A DNA stretch of 33,596 nt from Chloroflexota bacterium. Lineage in GTDB: Bacteria; Chloroflexota; Dehalococcoidia; Bin125. The stretch is from NCBI GenBank assembly GCA_028875225.1, contig JAPPFB010000023.1:1-33596 (forward strand), read 5' to 3'. Shown here in pieces: positions 13,887 to 27,131 of this stretch. Position numbers and translations under genes: made by a program. The notes under the pieces are model-generated. The model searched no databases and was not told the DNA's origin. It saw nothing but the letters and a program-made list of their open reading frames with translations. Each line of letters starts with the position of its first letter. Positions within the stretch are counted from its first letter, which is position 1.

Positions 13887-15638
13887 ATGCAGCCGGCAAT
13901 CAACTTTTTCCGACGCTTCAAATTCCGCGACGCCTACATCTTTGCGGTGATCCTGATCCTGACCGCCTTCGCAATTGCATCGGCCTGGCCGGGCAATCCC
14001 GATCGATATCTGCCCAGCTTCATTCCCTGGCCCGAAGGCGGCGGCGTCTCGGTCGGCGATTGGGAACGCAACGAGTTCCGTCTCGGCCTGGACCTCGCCG
14101 GCGGCGTCTCGATCACGCTTGAGGTCGCGGGCGAGGCGGCGCCGGTCCGCCGCGGCGAGTCGCTCAATCAGTTCCTCGATCGCGAGGGTGTCTCGCTGGA
14201 CCAGATTCTCAGTCTCAACCCCGCGCTGGCTGAGTTGGAGTCTGAGTCCTTCGATCTGCCCTTGCCCGAGCGCATCGCCGAAATTGTCCTCCCGCTCAAC
14301 GTCGACGACGCCTCAATCGAGGAGGCGGTCGAAGAATCGCGCCGGGTGATTGAGGAGCGAGTCAACGGCTTCGGCATCTCCGAGGCCGAAGTGACGGTCG
14401 TCGGCGCAGATCGGATCAACGCACAGATTCCAGGGGTCGACGCGGATGAGGCGTCCGACCTGGTCGGCTCCACCGCCTTGCTCGAGTTCCGCTCCATCGA
14501 TCCGGCCCAGCCGCAACCACAACCGCCGCTCGACCGTCTCCAGGTCGGCGCGGCGATCGACGACGTCTGGGATTCAACCTTGCCGCAGAACGACAGTCGC
14601 TTCGTTCGCCGTGCAGATCCATACTTCATTCCCCCGCCGGATGAGGATGTGATCGTCGCCAACGGCGTGCGCTGGATGCCGGCCACGGGAATCAATGCTG
14701 AAGGCCTGACCATTCAGCTCTCCGGTCGACACCTGATTGCCGAGTCGATTTCGCGCACCATCGACCAGGGTGGATCACCGGCACTGCTGTTCGAGCTGGA
14801 CGACGAAGGCGCACGGCTGATGGAGCAGATCACCCGCCGGCTGTTCGAGAGTCGCGGCCTGCTCGGCATCTTCGTCGACGGCCGCCTGATTTCCAGTCCG
14901 TCGGTCAACGCGGTGATCTCCGACAGCGGGATCATCAACGGCCTCTCCGAGGAAGACGCGATCACGCTGCGCCGTCAGCTCCGCGCCGGCGCCTTGCCGA
15001 TCAATCTCCGCGTCCTGCAGAGCACCGAGGTCGCCGCAACGCTGGGCGAAGACTCGGTGATCGACACCGTTCAGGCCGGGGTGGTCGCCTTCGTCGCGAT
15101 CGTCGTCTTCATGATGATCTACTACCGGGTGCCGGGCGTCGTCGCGGCACTGGCGCTAATCGTCTACGCCGCCGGAGTGATGGCCACGTTCAAGCTGGTG
15201 CCGATCACCCTCACACTCGCGGGTGTGGCCGGTCTCGTGCTCTCGATCGGGTTCGCCGTCGACGGTAACGTGCTGATCTTTGAGCGGCTCAAGGAGGAGC
15301 TGCGGCTGGGACGCAGCCTGTCGGGCGCGGTCGACACCGCCTGGGCTCGAGCCTGGCCGGCGATCCGTGACGGCAACGTCTCGACGATCATCACGGTCGC
15401 GATCCTCTGGCTGTTCGCCGACGCCCTCAACCAGAACCTGATCAAGTCCTTCGCCCTGGCGCTGCTGGTCGGGACGGGATTCAGCTTCGTCACAGTGATC
15501 TTCGTCACGCGCAACTTCATGACCATCGCCGTCAGCACAGGTTGGATACGAGGATTGCGGCCGTTCGGTGTCCGCCAGATGACCGTCCGCCCGCGCGCCG
15601 GCGAGGCGGGAAGCGGTGAAGGGGGCAGCCCAGCATGA
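13887..15638 (+). CDS. secD: Protein translocase subunit SecD with a LysM-like insert
   Basis: The 583-residue membrane protein uses the proton gradient, with SecF, to pull exported proteins through SecYEG. It has an N-terminal membrane helix (about 18-34), the D1 motif FRLGLDLAGGV (64-74), the family segment EESRRVIEERVNGFGISEAEV (149-169), and a six-helix C-terminal half that includes VLSIGFAVDGNVLIFERLKEE, with the Asp involved in proton transfer. Between D1 and the rest (about residues 86-137) is an extra stretch, VRRGESLNQFLDREGVS then LDQILSLNPAL and ending EIVLPL, which resembles a LysM module. It overlaps secF by ATGA. Confidence 0.94.
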   Translation: MQPAINFFRRFKFRDAYIFAVILILTAFAIASAWPGNPDRYLPSFIPWPEGGGVSVGDWERNEFRLGLDLAGGVSITLEVAGEAAPVRRGESLNQFLDREGVSLDQILSLNPALAELESESFDLPLPERIAEIVLPLNVDDASIEEAVEESRRVIEERVNGFGISEAEVTVVGADRINAQIPGVDADEASDLVGSTALLEFRSIDPAQPQPQPPLDRLQVGAAIDDVWDSTLPQNDSRFVRRADPYFIPPPDEDVIVANGVRWMPATGINAEGLTIQLSGRHLIAESISRTIDQGGSPALLFELDDEGARLMEQITRRLFESRGLLGIFVDGRLISSPSVNAVISDSGIINGLSEEDAITLRRQLRAGALPINLRVLQSTEVAATLGEDSVIDTVQAGVVAFVAIVVFMMIYYRVPGVVAALALIVYAAGVMATFKLVPITLTLAGVAGLVLSIGFAVDGNVLIFERLKEELRLGRSLSGAVDTAWARAWPAIRDGNVSTIITVAILWLFADALNQNLIKSFALALLVGTGFSFVTVIFVTRNFMTIAVSTGWIRGLRPFGVRQMTVRPRAGEAGSGEGGSPA

Positions 15639-16837
15639 TCGACTTCGTCGGCCGCCGCCGCGTCTACGCCGTGGTCTCATTGTTGATGATCATTCCCTCC
15701 CTGATCGGGCTCGCCCTGTGGCAGTTCGAGGCGGGTCTCGACTTCGCCGGCGGACTCGAGACGGAAGTCCGCTTCCTTGGCGAGACGGATCTGGAAGATG
15801 TGAACGATGCAATCGCCGGAATCGAAGGAGCTCCGGAAGGTACCCGGTTCTCGGCGAGCGAGGGCGAAGACGGTGCGTTCGTCGTCAGCGCCACGTACGA
15901 CACCGGATCCCTCGACGACGGCTTCGCCATCGCCGATCTGATCGGCACCCGACTGGGCGCCGAGTTGCCGGCGAGTGTCAGCCTCGGACTGGACGTCGAT
16001 GAATCGGATGTCCGCACCGAGCTCTGGTTCCCCGGCCAGGTGAGTCAGGACGAGGTCCGAGACGCATTGGAGACGGTCGGACTGGGCGGCGCCAGGATCC
16101 AGGCAACCGCCGATTCAGCCTTCCGCATGCGCGTGGAGCAGCCGTCCGATGGCGACCTCGAGCGCCTTCGGCAGCGAATCAACGATTCGCTGCGCAGCGA
16201 GATCGGCCCAATCGTGGTCCTGCAAAGCTCTTCGGTCTCGGGGACGCTCTCAGTCGAGATCGCAAGAGACGCGGGCGTCGCGCTCGCCGTCGCCGCCGTC
16301 GCGATCCTGATCTACATCTCGCTCGCCTTCCGCCGACTGCCTAATCCCGTGCTCTATGGATCGGCGGCCATCGTCGCGTTGTTGCACGACGTGACGATCG
16401 TCGCCGGCGCGTTCGCGATCGGCGGACAACTCGCCGGCCTCGAGGTCAACGCGATGTTCGTCACTGCGCTGCTAGCGATTATCGGCTACAGCGTCAACGA
16501 CACCATCGTCGTCTTCGACCGGATCCGCGAGAACCTGCTGCTCGATCCGCGCGAGGACTTCCGCCGGGTCGTCAACGCGGCCATCACCCAGTCGCTCGGT
16601 CGTTCGCTCAACACCTCGATCACCGTGGTCCTGGCGCTGCTCGCCCTCTTGCTGATCGGCGGCGTCACGATTCGGCCATTCGTCGTCGTGCTGTTCATCG
16701 GTACCGTGGCCGGCACCTACTCGTCGATCGCAGTGGCCAGCCAGATCGTCTTCCTCTGGCAGGACGGCACGCTGCCGCGCTTGCTGCGCCTGGGCGGAGA
16801 GCGCCGGGTCGTTCGGCGGGTCGAGCGCCGGGTCTAG
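15635..16837 (+). CDS. secF: Protein translocase subunit SecF
   Basis: The 400-residue partner of SecD has the same fold: a first membrane helix (about 11-30), the DFAGGLETEVRF motif, an extracytoplasmic domain, and five further helices including ALLAIIGYSVNDTIVVFDRIR, the counterpart of the SecD proton-relay helix. Its ATG overlaps the secD stop (ATGA), giving equimolar translation. The C terminus is rich in Arg and ends at 16837, where its TAG lies within a CTAG shared with the selB stop on the other strand. Confidence 0.95.
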   Translation: MIDFVGRRRVYAVVSLLMIIPSLIGLALWQFEAGLDFAGGLETEVRFLGETDLEDVNDAIAGIEGAPEGTRFSASEGEDGAFVVSATYDTGSLDDGFAIADLIGTRLGAELPASVSLGLDVDESDVRTELWFPGQVSQDEVRDALETVGLGGARIQATADSAFRMRVEQPSDGDLERLRQRINDSLRSEIGPIVVLQSSSVSGTLSVEIARDAGVALAVAAVAILIYISLAFRRLPNPVLYGSAAIVALLHDVTIVAGAFAIGGQLAGLEVNAMFVTALLAIIGYSVNDTIVVFDRIRENLLLDPREDFRRVVNAAITQSLGRSLNTSITVVLALLALLLIGGVTIRPFVVVLFIGTVAGTYSSIAVASQIVFLWQDGTLPRLLRLGGERRVVRRVERRV

Positions 16838-18702
16838 CCTCTCCAGAGGACTCTTGCGTCACCCACCCGCCTGGTGATCCGGTTTGTATCCAGGTGTTCG
16901 AGGAAGGCCTGGGCGATCTTGCGGCTGGTACCCAGGCGATCGCGCACTTCCGCCAGTGTCGCCCGCTCCTGGGCCTCGAGCAGCACCCGCGTTGTGGCCA
17001 CCATGTCGTCGAACGTCCGGCGGTCAAGGTTGACGCCGCCCTTGAGCCTGACGATCTTGCCTTGCGCCTCGAGATACTCCAACAGGTCGCCGTCGAACGC
17101 GGCGTCGGTGTCGGGCCGCACGCCCTGATCCTTGAGCCGCGTCAGGAGCGCATCAACCTGCGCCTGTTGTACGTCGGAGAGGGCGACGCTGCGACCGGGC
17201 AGATCGAACGCACCGTCGCGAACGATGAGTTGTCCAGATTCGGTCATTAGTTCCTGCAGGAACGAGAACGCCCGTTGAGGCAGGTTGAGGCGGCTGCGCA
17301 GATCTTCGCGTGGCAGTCCGGCTCGAAGCGGATTTGAATTGACATAATCTTTCACTATCGCTTCGGCTCGCGCGCTCAAGGCTCCAAGGCCCGTGTCCGA
17401 GATCAATACCGCGGAGTCGGACATGACTGCCTCGTCGAGGACGACGACGGAGCCGCCCGAGATCTGGCGTTCAATCGCGGCCGTTGCTTCTTCGACGGCC
17501 AATTCGCTCCGCGCGAGCAGGTCGCTCCAGCGGACCGGCTCCATTCGTTGTAGGACGGTCAACAGGGTGTCGTCTGGGGACCCATCGAGCAGTCGCTGCA
17601 GGGCCTGGAGCGTAGACTGGTCGTTGCGATGGTGACGGCGCGGTCGCGTGTCGACGATGCGGCCGCCTGCGACGGTTGCTTCGGCGGATCGAAGCACGAA
17701 GTGATCGCCGCGGGCGGCAGCGATGGGCCGTTCCAGTCGCAGCTGCGCCCAGGTCGAATCGCCGGGCGCCAGCAGATCACCCTCGAGCAGCCGGATCCGC
17801 GCCTGTACCTCGTCGGCGCCGACATGCAGCGTGCGGGTCGCGTTGTGCGGCAACGGCCTCGACGCGCCGGCTACGGCGCGCAGACGGATGTCGATGGCGG
17901 AAGTCGGCTCCAGCCAGCCCGGCGAGGTGAGGACCATGCCTCGCTCGATGTCGTTAGCCGACACACCGCTGAGGTTGACGGCCGTGCGAGCACCCGGCGG
18001 AGCAGTGTCCAGCGATTCTTCATGTGACTGCAGCCCTCGAACGCGGCACTCGATCCGACCAGGCTCGATCACGACCGGATCACCGACCGAGATATCACCA
18101 TCGAGCAGCGTGCCGGTGACCACCGCGCCGAACCCGGAGATGGAGAAGGCGCGGTCGACCGGCATTCTCGGACGTCCCTGGTCGGGAATCGGCGGCAGGT
18201 CGTCGATCAGAGAATCGATCAGGGTGCGCAGTTCCTCGATCCCGTCACCGGTCAGCGCGGAGACTGGCGCAATCGGCGAACCAGCCAACGCCGTGTCGTT
18301 CAGCAGTTCGACAATCTCTTCTTCAACCAGTGCGAGCCATTCTTCGTCGACGAGGTCTGTCTTGGTCAGGGCGACGAGTCCGCGGTCGATGTCCAGGAGG
18401 TCGAGGATGTCGAGGTGTTCTCGGGTCTGGGGCATGACGCTCTCGTCCGCCGCGATCACCAGCAGGGCCAGGTTGATTCCGCCGACGCCGGCGAGCATGT
18501 TCTTGATGAAGCGTTCGTGGCCGGGCACGTCGACGATACTGACGGCGCGGCCGGACGGCAGTTCGCACCAGGCGAAGCCGAGGTCAATGGTCAGACCGCG
18601 CGCCTTCTCCTCGGCCCAGCGATCGGGATCGATGCCGGAGAGCGCCTGGACGAGGGCGCTCTTGCCATGGTCGACATGTCCGGCGGTGCCAATCACATAC
18701 AC
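16834..18702 (-). CDS. selB: Selenocysteine-specific elongation factor
   Basis: The 622-residue GTPase brings selenocysteyl-tRNA to the ribosome at UGA codons flanked by a SECIS hairpin. G1 is GTAGHVDHGKS (5-15), G3 is VDVPGHERF, and G4 is TKTD. The three EF-Tu-like domains are followed by the SelB-specific C-terminal half of winged-helix modules (from about residue 380 onward), which read the SECIS; the closing part, KGGVNLDRRTFDDM, is typical. It is full length and apparently intact, which predicts that the organism uses selenocysteine. selA, selC and selD are not in the window. It converges with secF and diverges from the quinone oxidoreductase gene across 59 bases. Confidence 0.95.
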   Translation of the reverse strand: MYVIGTAGHVDHGKSALVQALSGIDPDRWAEEKARGLTIDLGFAWCELPSGRAVSIVDVPGHERFIKNMLAGVGGINLALLVIAADESVMPQTREHLDILDLLDIDRGLVALTKTDLVDEEWLALVEEEIVELLNDTALAGSPIAPVSALTGDGIEELRTLIDSLIDDLPPIPDQGRPRMPVDRAFSISGFGAVVTGTLLDGDISVGDPVVIEPGRIECRVRGLQSHEESLDTAPPGARTAVNLSGVSANDIERGMVLTSPGWLEPTSAIDIRLRAVAGASRPLPHNATRTLHVGADEVQARIRLLEGDLLAPGDSTWAQLRLERPIAAARGDHFVLRSAEATVAGGRIVDTRPRRHHRNDQSTLQALQRLLDGSPDDTLLTVLQRMEPVRWSDLLARSELAVEEATAAIERQISGGSVVVLDEAVMSDSAVLISDTGLGALSARAEAIVKDYVNSNPLRAGLPREDLRSRLNLPQRAFSFLQELMTESGQLIVRDGAFDLPGRSVALSDVQQAQVDALLTRLKDQGVRPDTDAAFDGDLLEYLEAQGKIVRLKGGVNLDRRTFDDMVATTRVLLEAQERATLAEVRDRLGTSRKIAQAFLEHLDTNRITRRVGDARVLWRG

Positions 18703-23066: not shown

Positions 23067-23169
23067 TAATCTTCGATTGATATAACGGGGAACGGGCTCT
23101 GTGGGTGATAACAGGAAGTTGCAGGCCGCAGCAGTGAAGGCTGATCGAATCGAGCGAGCGCTGACAAGC

Positions 23170-24933
23170 ATGACCAGCCTGAGATTCCTGTTGGTCGCCG
23201 CGCTGCTGGCGGCAGTGATGGCGTTGGCGGCGTGCGGTGGAGACGATGGGCAGCCGGAACAGGAAGCAGCATCGCAGGCGGCCCAACGCCAGGACCGCGA
23301 ACAGGACGATCAGGACGGACAAGAAGAAGTCACGCGGGAGGAACGTCAGGCCACGATCCAGCAGCAACAACAGCAGCAAGCGGGCGCGGCGCAGGCTGAA
23401 GCAGGCGAAGCCGCGACCGTGGCGCCGCGCGAGCGCGGCGAATTCCGGATCGCGCGAGCGGAGCCGATCAACCTCGATCCGGCGCAGATCACGGATGTCA
23501 GTTCGGCCGTGATCGCGGTCGAGATCTTCGGCGGCCTGGTCGTGCTCGACCGAGACTTGCGGATCGCTCCCGACCTGGCGGAATCGGTTCCCAGTCCGAC
23601 CGTCAATGACGACGGCACCGTGACCTACCGATTCACGATCCGGCGCAACGCCACGTTCCACGACGGCAAGCCGATCAGGGCTCAGGACTTCAAGTGGACG
23701 CTCGAGCGCAACCTGCATCCGGAGACGCTGTCGCCGACGGCGCCTGACTTCCTGGGCGACATCGTGGGCGCGGCGGAATACGTTCGCGAGCGGGTCGACG
23801 AGGTCGTCGGCATTCAGGTGGTCGACGACTACACGCTCGACATCACGATTCTCCAGGCGACTCCGGTGTTCCTGTACAAGCTCACCTATCCCACGGCGTA
23901 TGTGCTGGATCGGGAGCAGGTCGAGGCGGATCCGGAACGCTGGGCGCTCAATCCGAACGGAAGCGGACCGTTCAGGCTGACGGAGTGGCAGCTCGGCGAA
24001 GGGCTCACGCTGGAGCGCTTTGACGACTACCACCTGGAACCGGCCCAGGTGGCGAAGGTTTCCGTTCGGTTTGCCGGCGGATCGGTTGAACAGTTTGAGA
24101 ACGACGAACTCGACCAGGCATTCGTCGGGATCAACGACATTGAACGAGTCCGCGATCCGGCGAACGAATTGAACTCCCAGTATGTGACGCGATCCGAGCT
24201 CTCCATCTTCTACCTCGCGTTCAACGTGTCCACGCCACCGTTTGACGACGTGAATGTCCGCCTGGCCCTGGCCCACGCCATTGACAAGACCACGATCACA
24301 CAGGAGGTCCAGGCCGACCTATTGATCCAGGCGCGGCAGATTGTTCCGCCGGGGCTCGCAGCTCACGACACCGATTATCCGGGGCTGGTGTTTGATCCGG
24401 AGCTGGCGCAGGAGTACCTGGCGGCGTCGCGCTATGCCGGCTCGACCACACTGGAGGACATTCGCCTGACGATCTCCGGCGCCGGCGCCACGCCGGGGCC
24501 CAGCATCGAGGCGATTCAGGACATGTGGCGGCAGCATCTGGGCCTGGAGGTCGACATCCAGCAGGTGGAGTTCGCCAGCTTCATCTCCGATATCGACCGA
24601 GGCCTGTACGGATTCTTCTCGTTGGGCTGGAGCCTCGACTATCCCGATCCGCACAACGTGCTTGATTACAAGTTCTACAGCGCCTCGCTGGGCAACGATG
24701 TGCAGCTCGACGACGAGGCGATCGACGCGCTGTTGGAGGAGGCCCGCTACTCGTTCGACCAGGAAGTGCGGACGAGCATCTACCGGCAGGTCGACAACAT
24801 GCTGGTCGAGCAGGCGATCTGGATTCCGCTGTACTACTCGGTGGCCCACGAGCTGGTCAAGCCGTACGTGAAGAACTACGAACCGACGAGGATGGTGATT
24901 CCCCACCTGCGCTTCGTCAGCATCGAGGAATAG
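23170..24933 (+). CDS. Peptide/nickel-type ABC transporter substrate-binding lipoprotein
   Basis: The 587-residue protein belongs to the SBP_bac_5 (DppA/OppA-like) family. A hydrophobic signal with lipobox LAAC (lipidation at Cys22) anchors it to the outer face of the membrane. A low-complexity, glutamine-rich linker (about residues 30-80, including a run of Gln) precedes the binding domain, which starts near ERGEFRIARAEP and contains FTIRRNATFHDGKPIRAQDF, a family signature. ATG 23170 is chosen because it begins the signal peptide; a GTG at 23101 would place 23 extra residues in front of it. The two permease genes follow directly. Substrate not predictable: peptides, sugars or metal complexes. 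Confidence 0.92.
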   Translation: MTSLRFLLVAALLAAVMALAACGGDDGQPEQEAASQAAQRQDREQDDQDGQEEVTREERQATIQQQQQQQAGAAQAEAGEAATVAPRERGEFRIARAEPINLDPAQITDVSSAVIAVEIFGGLVVLDRDLRIAPDLAESVPSPTVNDDGTVTYRFTIRRNATFHDGKPIRAQDFKWTLERNLHPETLSPTAPDFLGDIVGAAEYVRERVDEVVGIQVVDDYTLDITILQATPVFLYKLTYPTAYVLDREQVEADPERWALNPNGSGPFRLTEWQLGEGLTLERFDDYHLEPAQVAKVSVRFAGGSVEQFENDELDQAFVGINDIERVRDPANELNSQYVTRSELSIFYLAFNVSTPPFDDVNVRLALAHAIDKTTITQEVQADLLIQARQIVPPGLAAHDTDYPGLVFDPELAQEYLAASRYAGSTTLEDIRLTISGAGATPGPSIEAIQDMWRQHLGLEVDIQQVEFASFISDIDRGLYGFFSLGWSLDYPDPHNVLDYKFYSASLGNDVQLDDEAIDALLEEARYSFDQEVRTSIYRQVDNMLVEQAIWIPLYYSVAHELVKPYVKNYEPTRMVIPHLRFVSIEE

Positions 24934-24981: not shown

Positions 24982-25968
24982 ATGGCATCAGGCGCTATCC
25001 CGCTCCTGATTCGGCGAATGCTCCTGGTGCCGATTCTGGTGTTCGCGGTGATGGCGCTGTCGTACGCGCTGACCCACGCTGCGCCGGGCGACCCAGTCAA
25101 AATCATCGCCGGCGCGCGCGACATTGAGCCTGAACGCGCTCAGCAGATTCGGGAAGAGTTCGGACTCGAAGGCAACTACGTCGAACGCTTTGCCCGCTAC
25201 GTCTGGGGCGTGGTGTCTCGAGGAGACCTCGGGCCCTCGTACTACTACCGGTCTCCGGTGCGCTCGGTGCAGGAGCTGCTTGGCGAACGAATCTGGGTCT
25301 CGGCGCAGATCAATCTGATTGTCATGGGCCTGGTCTTCGGCCTGGGAATCCCATTAGGTGTGTATGCAGCCGTTCACCGAGGACGTTGGCAAGATCCCGC
25401 GCTGATCGGCGGCCTCAAGATCTTCGATTCAATCCCGTCGCCGATCTTCATCGTGCTGATCGCCGTGCTGATGGTTAATGGGTTGGCCGGATTCTTCAAT
25501 TTCCTGGGTTTCAATGTGCCCAACGTGTGGACGCCGGGCGACCCGGCGTCGTACATCATTCCCGTGCTGGCGTTGACGCTGCCGTCGATCGGAGGCATGG
25601 CGCGGTTTGTCCGAGTCAGTGCGCTGTCCACGATGGATGACGACTACGTCCGGACTGCCAGGGCCAAAGGACTGACCGAGCGGCGCATCCTGTACGGCCA
25701 CGTGCTGCGCAACGCCATGTTGCCGCTGTCCACCGTGTTCGGCCTGTCGATCGTGGGAATCATCGGCGGCTCGATCATCATCGAGACCGCCTATGGCGTG
25801 CCGGGGGTCGGACAGTTCATGTTCCAGTCGATCACCCAGCGGGATTTCAATGTCATCCTCGGATTCACCCTGTTGACCGCCACGTTATTCATCGTGGTCA
25901 ATGCGCTAATTGATGTGCTCTACATCTTTATCGATCCGCGCATCCGCTTCACGGCCCGGTTCTCATGA
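24982..25968 (+). CDS. ABC transporter permease, DppB/OppB family
   Basis: The 328-residue membrane protein has a first helix at residues 9-31, a large extracytoplasmic loop and five further helices. The family's HAAPGDP follows helix 1, and the coupling-loop (EAA-type) segment is RTARAKGLTERRILYGHVLRNAMLP in its usual place. It forms the transmembrane channel with the next gene product. The stop overlaps the start of the second permease by ATGA, so the two are co-translated. Confidence 0.93.
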   Translation: MASGAIPLLIRRMLLVPILVFAVMALSYALTHAAPGDPVKIIAGARDIEPERAQQIREEFGLEGNYVERFARYVWGVVSRGDLGPSYYYRSPVRSVQELLGERIWVSAQINLIVMGLVFGLGIPLGVYAAVHRGRWQDPALIGGLKIFDSIPSPIFIVLIAVLMVNGLAGFFNFLGFNVPNVWTPGDPASYIIPVLALTLPSIGGMARFVRVSALSTMDDDYVRTARAKGLTERRILYGHVLRNAMLPLSTVFGLSIVGIIGGSIIIETAYGVPGVGQFMFQSITQRDFNVILGFTLLTATLFIVVNALIDVLYIFIDPRIRFTARFS

Positions 25969-27131
25969 CGACCAGAGCTGAGGTTCAGCCGCAGTGGGCA
26001 ATGCCCGAGAAGTCGGAGACACCATGGGCCCGCGCGTTGCGCGCGATCCTGCGCAAGAAGATCGCGGTCGTCTGCATTGCCGTGATCATCGTGCTCTACG
26101 GCGCAGGCGCTTACACGATGCTGGACGCGTTCGGTATCGACATCGGGTTGCAGGATCCCACCCAGTCCAATCTGAGTCAGCGGCGCTCGATCAGGGCGGT
26201 GGACGGAGCGCCGGAAACTCTCGGCGCATTCACGCAACGACTCGATGTCGAGATCGCGACGATTTCGCAGCTGAATCCCGAGATTGTCGACGAGTACGGA
26301 CCCCTGACGGCCGAGACGATCTTGCCCGCTCGAACAGAACTGGTCCTGAGCGAGGACGAGACCCTGCAAGGGCCGTCCAGTCGACACTGGTTTGGAACGG
26401 ATCGAAATGGGCGCGACGCCTTCGCGCGAGCGATGTTCTCGCTTCGCACGACGCTGATCATCAGCGTGATATCCGTTGTCTTTGGGAATCTCTTTCTCGG
26501 TCTGGGATTAGGTCTGTTGGCCGGTTATCGGGGTGGACTGGTCGATCAGATCATCATGCGCATCGGCGATGTCATGCTGGCCATGCCCGGCCTCTTGTTC
26601 CTGATCGTGATCGTCGCGGTGTTCCGGGATCAGTGGGAGGAGTGGTTCCGATCGATTGAGGATGCGACCGGCATGGGCTGGCTGATTGACCAGGGTGTTG
26701 ACGACTATGTGTTGATCGTCTTTGCCACTTCGCTCGTTGGCTGGGCCGGATCGGCGCGGTTCTACCGCGCCCAGGTGCTGGCGCTTCGAGAGTCGGACTA
26801 CATCCTGGCGGCCGAGACGATTGGCGCACGCACGCCCCGAGTGTTGGTCAGGCATCTGTTTCCGGGAATTCTGCCCTGGTTCATTGTCGGCTTCAGTGCC
26901 TCGCTCGGTGAGATTGCCGGCGCTGAGGTCGTTCTGACCTGGCTCGGCATCGGCATCACGCCACCGACTCCGTCGTTCGGGATCATGGTCGAGAATGCGG
27001 GAGGACGAACAACATTCCTGCTTTACCCATGGTTGCTGCTCGCCCCGTTCTTTTTTCTCCTGGCACTGATGCTCGCGTTCAACCTGCTCGGCGACGCGAT
27101 CAACGACGTGCTCAATCCGCGCGGGCGATAG
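25965..27131 (+). CDS. ABC transporter permease, DppC/OppC family, with a LysM-like insert
   Basis: The 388-residue protein is longer than usual (about 290-310). After helix 1 (about 33-50) an extra extracytoplasmic stretch appears before the family's HWFGTDRNGRDAFAR (141-155). Within it, residues about 82-129 (ETLGAFTQRLDVEIATIS, QLNPEI, then TILPARTELVLS) resemble a LysM module. The five C-terminal helices and the coupling-loop segment LAAETIGARTPRVLVRHLFP are typical. It pairs with the DppB-like permease. No ATPase genes follow; tig is next. Confidence 0.92.
   Translation: MTTRAEVQPQWAMPEKSETPWARALRAILRKKIAVVCIAVIIVLYGAGAYTMLDAFGIDIGLQDPTQSNLSQRRSIRAVDGAPETLGAFTQRLDVEIATISQLNPEIVDEYGPLTAETILPARTELVLSEDETLQGPSSRHWFGTDRNGRDAFARAMFSLRTTLIISVISVVFGNLFLGLGLGLLAGYRGGLVDQIIMRIGDVMLAMPGLLFLIVIVAVFRDQWEEWFRSIEDATGMGWLIDQGVDDYVLIVFATSLVGWAGSARFYRAQVLALRESDYILAAETIGARTPRVLVRHLFPGILPWFIVGFSASLGEIAGAEVVLTWLGIGITPPTPSFGIMVENAGGRTTFLLYPWLLLAPFFFLLALMLAFNLLGDAINDVLNPRGR

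Follow-up and report, generated by a model that had tools for sequence, protein, structure and literature searches.

An enlarged loop in a peptide permease

The window, by which we mean the whole stretch of 33,596 nucleotides analysed here, derives from a genome of 3.22 Mb and carries on its forward strand three adjoining genes for an ABC peptide importer. A gene for the peptide-binding protein of the transporter (positions 23101 to 24933; SBP_bac_5, 256.8 bits) precedes one for the permease subunit DppB (24982 to 25968), which carries no LysM insert and overlaps by 4 bp the gene for a DppC-type ABC peptide permease subunit of 388 amino acids (25965 to 27131). The DppC protein matches the BPD_transp_1 family (PF00528) with 111.1 bits (E = 6.7e-32, cut-off 26.4), and its residues 19–45 give a partial match to OppC_N that covers 27 of 53 positions with 18.6 bits (cut-off 23.9). 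Its relatives of known structure are the Escherichia coli DppC and OppC chains. The order of the three importer genes is the same in eight loci examined from the family of this genome, and the longer series SecD-SecF-SelB-ADH-radical SAM-AspS-SBP-DppB-DppC-Tig is conserved across the loci examined, one of which is partial. The SelB-type selenocysteine elongation factor in this series (16834 to 18702, reverse strand) keeps its position in the family, which implies selenoprotein synthesis.

The first transmembrane helix of DppC (TM1, residues ~31–53, positions 26055 to 26123) was placed by hydropathy and by the partial, sub-cut-off OppC_N match. Between this helix and the segment GPSSRHWFGTDRNGRD (residues 136–151, positions 26370 to 26417), which forms the conserved end of the DppC/OppC loop and is where insert-free orthologues match again, lie about 60 extra residues. 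Because the loop ends align with insert-free orthologues, the additional residues are best described as an insertion in DppC. The preliminary description had proposed a LysM-like module at 26208 to 26351, and each of the motifs on which that proposal was built is present: E84-T-L86, followed by a helix, L103-N-P-E-I107 and L120-P-A-R-T-E-L-V-L-S129. The complete module extends somewhat further than described, spanning residues ~70–132 of the extracytoplasmic TM1–TM2 loop (26172 to 26360).

Positions E84, L86 and L103-N104-P105 are invariant in the aligned sequences of the genus, and the same E, L and LNP are invariant in an 18-row alignment of the loop. The insert is under purifying selection, with a pN/pS of 0.146 compared with 0.104 in the rest of the protein. 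The core motifs of LysM domains, [DE]-[TS]-L and then an N close to where helix 2 ends, are present; however, the G-D of the canonical G-D-T that begins the LysM groove is replaced, so that only E-T-L is left, and the second half of the insert is longer than that of a canonical LysM. Judged by these two sequence differences, binding by the DppC insert may be weakened or lost.

Relationship of the insert to LysM domains

A scan with the Pfam LysM model (PF01476) returned no LysM hit for the DppC inserts in any of the five family members tested, and profile–profile and structure comparisons were therefore used instead. The cut-off of that model, 20.9 bits, is a detection threshold and not a structural feature. 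When a profile of the 19 distinct DppC-insert sequences of the family was aligned by hhalign with one made from the genome's own LysM domains (20 copies), it scored 31.2 (probability 89), compared with 18.0 for the best decoy. The score against the insert that we describe below in SecD was 41.7 (probability 94; best decoy 25.7). The decoys numbered 362, comprising 162 real segments and 200 column-permuted profiles.

Structure prediction gives a corresponding picture. An AF2 model of the DppC loop, computed from 18 natural sequences, has pLDDT values above 90 over model residues 11–70 and the order strand-helix-helix-(helix)-strand. Most of the top Foldseek matches to this model are LysM proteins, with weak E-values of the kind that is usual for chains of about 50 residues. 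Superposition with VIA-align gave a Z of 5.2 and 2.0 Å over 47 of 47 residues for 4uz3, and a Z of 5.1 and 1.7 Å over 46 of 46 residues for 7r1l, a LysM bound to the trisaccharide GlcNAc3; Z values near 5 are middling. On the strength of the model and the profiles, we regard it as highly probable that the extra loop of DppC adopts a divergent LysM fold (beta-alpha-alpha-beta).

A second module in SecD

The window holds a second host of such a module, SecD (13887 to 15638, forward strand), a component of the protein-export apparatus, which was recognised by matches to SecD_1st, SecDF_P1_head and SecD_SecF_C. About 60 extra residues follow GLDLAGGVSITLEV, and the putative module (residues ~81–139, positions ~14127 to 14303) is placed by hhalign, Pfam, AF2 and Foldseek between the GLDLAGG motif and the remainder of the P1 domain. 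Pfam LysM scores for SecD inserts reach 15.2 and 19.8 bits in two family members (19.8 at locus L068), and hhalign relates the insert to LysM as well as to the DppC insert. The AF2 model of the SecD loop likewise has LysM proteins at the top of its Foldseek matches, and its VIA-align matches are mixed. The claim that two unrelated membrane proteins of one window carry the same kind of module is supported.

The SecD insert retains G-E-S-L, and an E-[TS]-L...V...LNP core is common to the DppC insert, the SecD insert and canonical LysM domains. Selection on the SecD insert is weaker, with a pN/pS of 0.29 compared with 0.09 in its flanks. In genome G017, this loop of SecD (L069:1252-1737) holds two LysM-like copies in tandem, which suggests that the module was duplicated in place.

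In a tree based on 22 columns, the DppC and SecD modules group together in one split (38 of 38 tips, support 0.96), but mean similarity between modules of the two hosts is 42.4, no higher than that of ordinary LysM pairs (41.9). One copy was possibly shared between the two genes, which lie about 10 kb apart.

Distribution and further hosts

A DppC orthologue was found in 19 of the 20 family genomes, and all 19 have the insert; the exception, G017, is 79% complete and gave no DppC orthologue match at the cut-off used. SecD with its insert is present in all 20. Across 226 further genomes of the class, no match to DppC begins before residue 118; the matches start at or past the end of the insert. 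No insert was seen in the 18 DppC loops from outside the family that were read directly, or in the 11 SecD proteins from outside the family that were inspected. Among the orthologues inspected, the DppC and SecD inserts are lineage-specific, as had been proposed. Bin125 is treated as a lineage within Dehalococcoidia in a taxonomic revision (PMC10608941), and bin125 is mentioned in a paper on sponges (PMC5649159). From that paper and from isolate names, several family-related metagenome-assembled genomes (MAGs) appear to come from marine sponges.

A search of the same genome for further hosts, which the preliminary description had suggested, revealed a pattern wider than the one it reported. 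One LysM profile used in these scans was built in part from the very proteins that it recovers, and its hits are a measure of consistency rather than an independent discovery. Two DppB-type permeases on contig C2 (L117:6004-7629, and a 528-residue open reading frame of L017, G000:C2) carry LysM domains in the TM1-side loop with scores of 38.2, 29.1 and 30.5 bits, above the Pfam cut-off. Their LysM array occupies the position of the scoop motif of E. coli DppB, and when 400 genomes of the phylum were searched, this LysM-bearing loop was found in this genus only. The DppC partners of these permeases (L117:4729-5970; G000:C2, ~156.7 kb) have a different extracytoplasmic insert of about 110 residues (RYDSQDVFKIANASFADDKIANELDG...). 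A LysM in every DppC paralogue was considered and rejected, given that these two from C2 have the helical-looking ~110-residue insert and the others have short loops.

Furthermore, an RseP-type M50 site-2 protease (L112:954-2666; G000:C29:20453-22162) has two LysM-like copies between its PDZ domain and the next membrane segment. The boundary of this insert is clean: 14 orthologues from the class are without it, whereas each of the nine genomes sampled from the family has it, as do families f50 and f59. A restriction of LysM-bearing loops to the family of the window was rejected, since the double insert of RseP extends to those two families. An acyltransferase-3-like membrane protein (L016; G000:C21:52532-52663) carries a LysM above the Pfam cut-off after its membrane part, and this LysM precedes a domain that appears, by eye, to be of the SGNH type.

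Occurrence of LysM with peptidoglycan synthesis

The preliminary description found the modules striking in a phylum in which some members lack peptidoglycan. This surprise does not apply to the present family: penicillin-binding transpeptidases occur in all 20 of its genomes, and LysM proteins track transpeptidases throughout the class. Specifically, 146 of 148 Dehalococcoidia genomes agree in the two features (62 have both, 84 have neither and two are discordant), in a count of LysM proteins generally and not of the DppC insert. The association has a Fisher p of 1e-39, a value calculated with no correction for shared ancestry. One discordant genome, G053, has a transpeptidase only, and the other, G113, has a single LysM only. 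Peptidoglycan has been lost in many orders of Dehalococcoidia (PMC10284905), and the agreement between LysM and transpeptidases fits this published loss, which points to peptidoglycan as the usual ligand of LysM domains here. If LysM domains do sit in loops of these membrane machines, they could serve as marker features for envelope type in the class.

Proposed docking to the cell wall and its alternatives

We consider the odds slightly in favour of a model in which the DppC module is a divergent LysM that docks the importer to peptidoglycan; if the LysM fold alone is granted, wall docking through glycan binding becomes moderately probable. In this model, the roughly 60 residues inserted between TM1 and TM2 of DppC would form a LysM-fold domain outside the membrane that binds GlcNAc-containing strands of peptidoglycan, and the bound module would hold the importer against the inner face of the wall or position it within that face. 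SecD, DppB and RseP would be docked equally through their own LysM-bearing loops. In the E. coli DppABCDF importer, DppB and DppC have their TM1–TM2 regions in the periplasm and are both capped by DppA (PMC12136057), which would place the module outside the membrane and beside the dock of the binding protein.

The main rival, which we judge unlikely yet plausible enough to be weighed in earnest, keeps the LysM fold but dispenses with glycan binding: the module would be a protein–protein or gating element that contacts, for example, the peptide-binding protein as this caps DppB and DppC, or neighbouring envelope proteins. The loss of the G-D that starts the groove makes this reading plausible, as does the longer second half of the DppC insert. 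Moreover, the host machines work with soluble partners outside the cytoplasm; a TM1-side scoop of E. coli DppB enters DppA where the latter caps the permease (PMC12136057), and the LysM array of the DppB paralogue in this genome sits in the corresponding loop. Nevertheless, one kind of module recurs in hosts whose partners differ (SecD, RseP, DppB and DppC), a recurrence that a common ligand would explain more readily, and LysM domains in the class occur almost only where transpeptidases are present.

Other explanations fare less well. LysM domains also bind chitin, and a module that recognised an external chitin-like or host glycan, aiding the uptake of host peptides or adhesion, would suit a family in whose records MAGs appear to be sponge-associated. 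Nonetheless, the permease and SecD loops are near the membrane and under the wall, from where they would hardly reach host polymers, and a sponge origin cannot be shown for all members; we consider this reading improbable. A similarly small chance attaches to the insert being an almost neutral leftover of shuffled modules that acts only as a spacer. The SecD insert does evolve faster than its flanks, but purifying selection on the DppC insert is strong, core residues are conserved across the family and no family genome in which the gene was found has lost the insert. Least probable of all, in our view, is that the loop has no homology to LysM and reached its beta-alpha-alpha-beta shape by convergence: although the DppC insert has no Pfam hit and its Foldseek E-values are weak, the profile scores lie far above all decoys and the core is the one found in the SecD insert and in canonical LysM domains.

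A tentative extension of the docking model, which we hold to be possible but doubtful, is that a peptidoglycan-making lineage of Dehalococcoidia repeatedly put LysM domains into extracytoplasmic loops of SecD, DppC, DppB, RseP and the acyltransferase, and that SecD and DppC possibly share one such copy. It would amount to a general wall-docking design that physically ties protein export, the import of peptides and envelope-stress proteolysis to peptidoglycan. LysM domains that sit within loops of multi-pass transporters, SecD and a site-2 protease would mean that core membrane machines can acquire wall attachment as a grafted property. For an uncultured lineage, this would open a way to test how uptake, export and the sensing of stress are positioned with respect to the wall.

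Comparison with known systems

The LysM domain is a small module that ordinarily grips the cell wall, and it is usually found attached to hydrolases of the wall, to secreted proteins or to landmark proteins with a single membrane pass. In the literature searched, coverage of which was incomplete, we found no description of a LysM inside the loops of DppC, DppB, SecD or a site-2 protease. LysM and DppC are themselves known families; what is new, as far as this literature goes, is the occurrence of LysM within these host loops.

The DppC insert resembles the LysM family (PF01476, CBM50) in its predicted beta-alpha-alpha-beta fold, its size, its E-T-L...LNP core and its profile–profile match, and departs from it in having no Pfam hit, no G-D in the first loop and a longer second half. 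Whereas a usual LysM is attached to a hydrolase or secreted protein, this one lies inside a loop of a polytopic transporter. The window SecD shares the P1 and SecD_SecF_C domains of known SecD proteins but differs in the ~60 LysM-like residues after GLDLAGG, which the 11 SecD proteins from outside the family do not have. With E. coli DppC and OppC (8z1v, 8z21), the window DppC has in common the core of the permease and the end of the loop that precedes GTD..GRD; however, those chains have about 300 residues compared with 388, and the matches to the E. coli DppC chain start at residue 130, past the insert. The closest functional precedent for docking is FimV/HubP, in which a periplasmic LysM is thought to tie a polar machine of the inner membrane to peptidoglycan (PMC12918733, PMC5285504). 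The likeness is that a protein of the inner membrane bears a LysM outside the cytoplasm; FimV/HubP, however, are landmark proteins that cross the membrane once, whereas the DppC module is built into a conserved subunit of a transporter.
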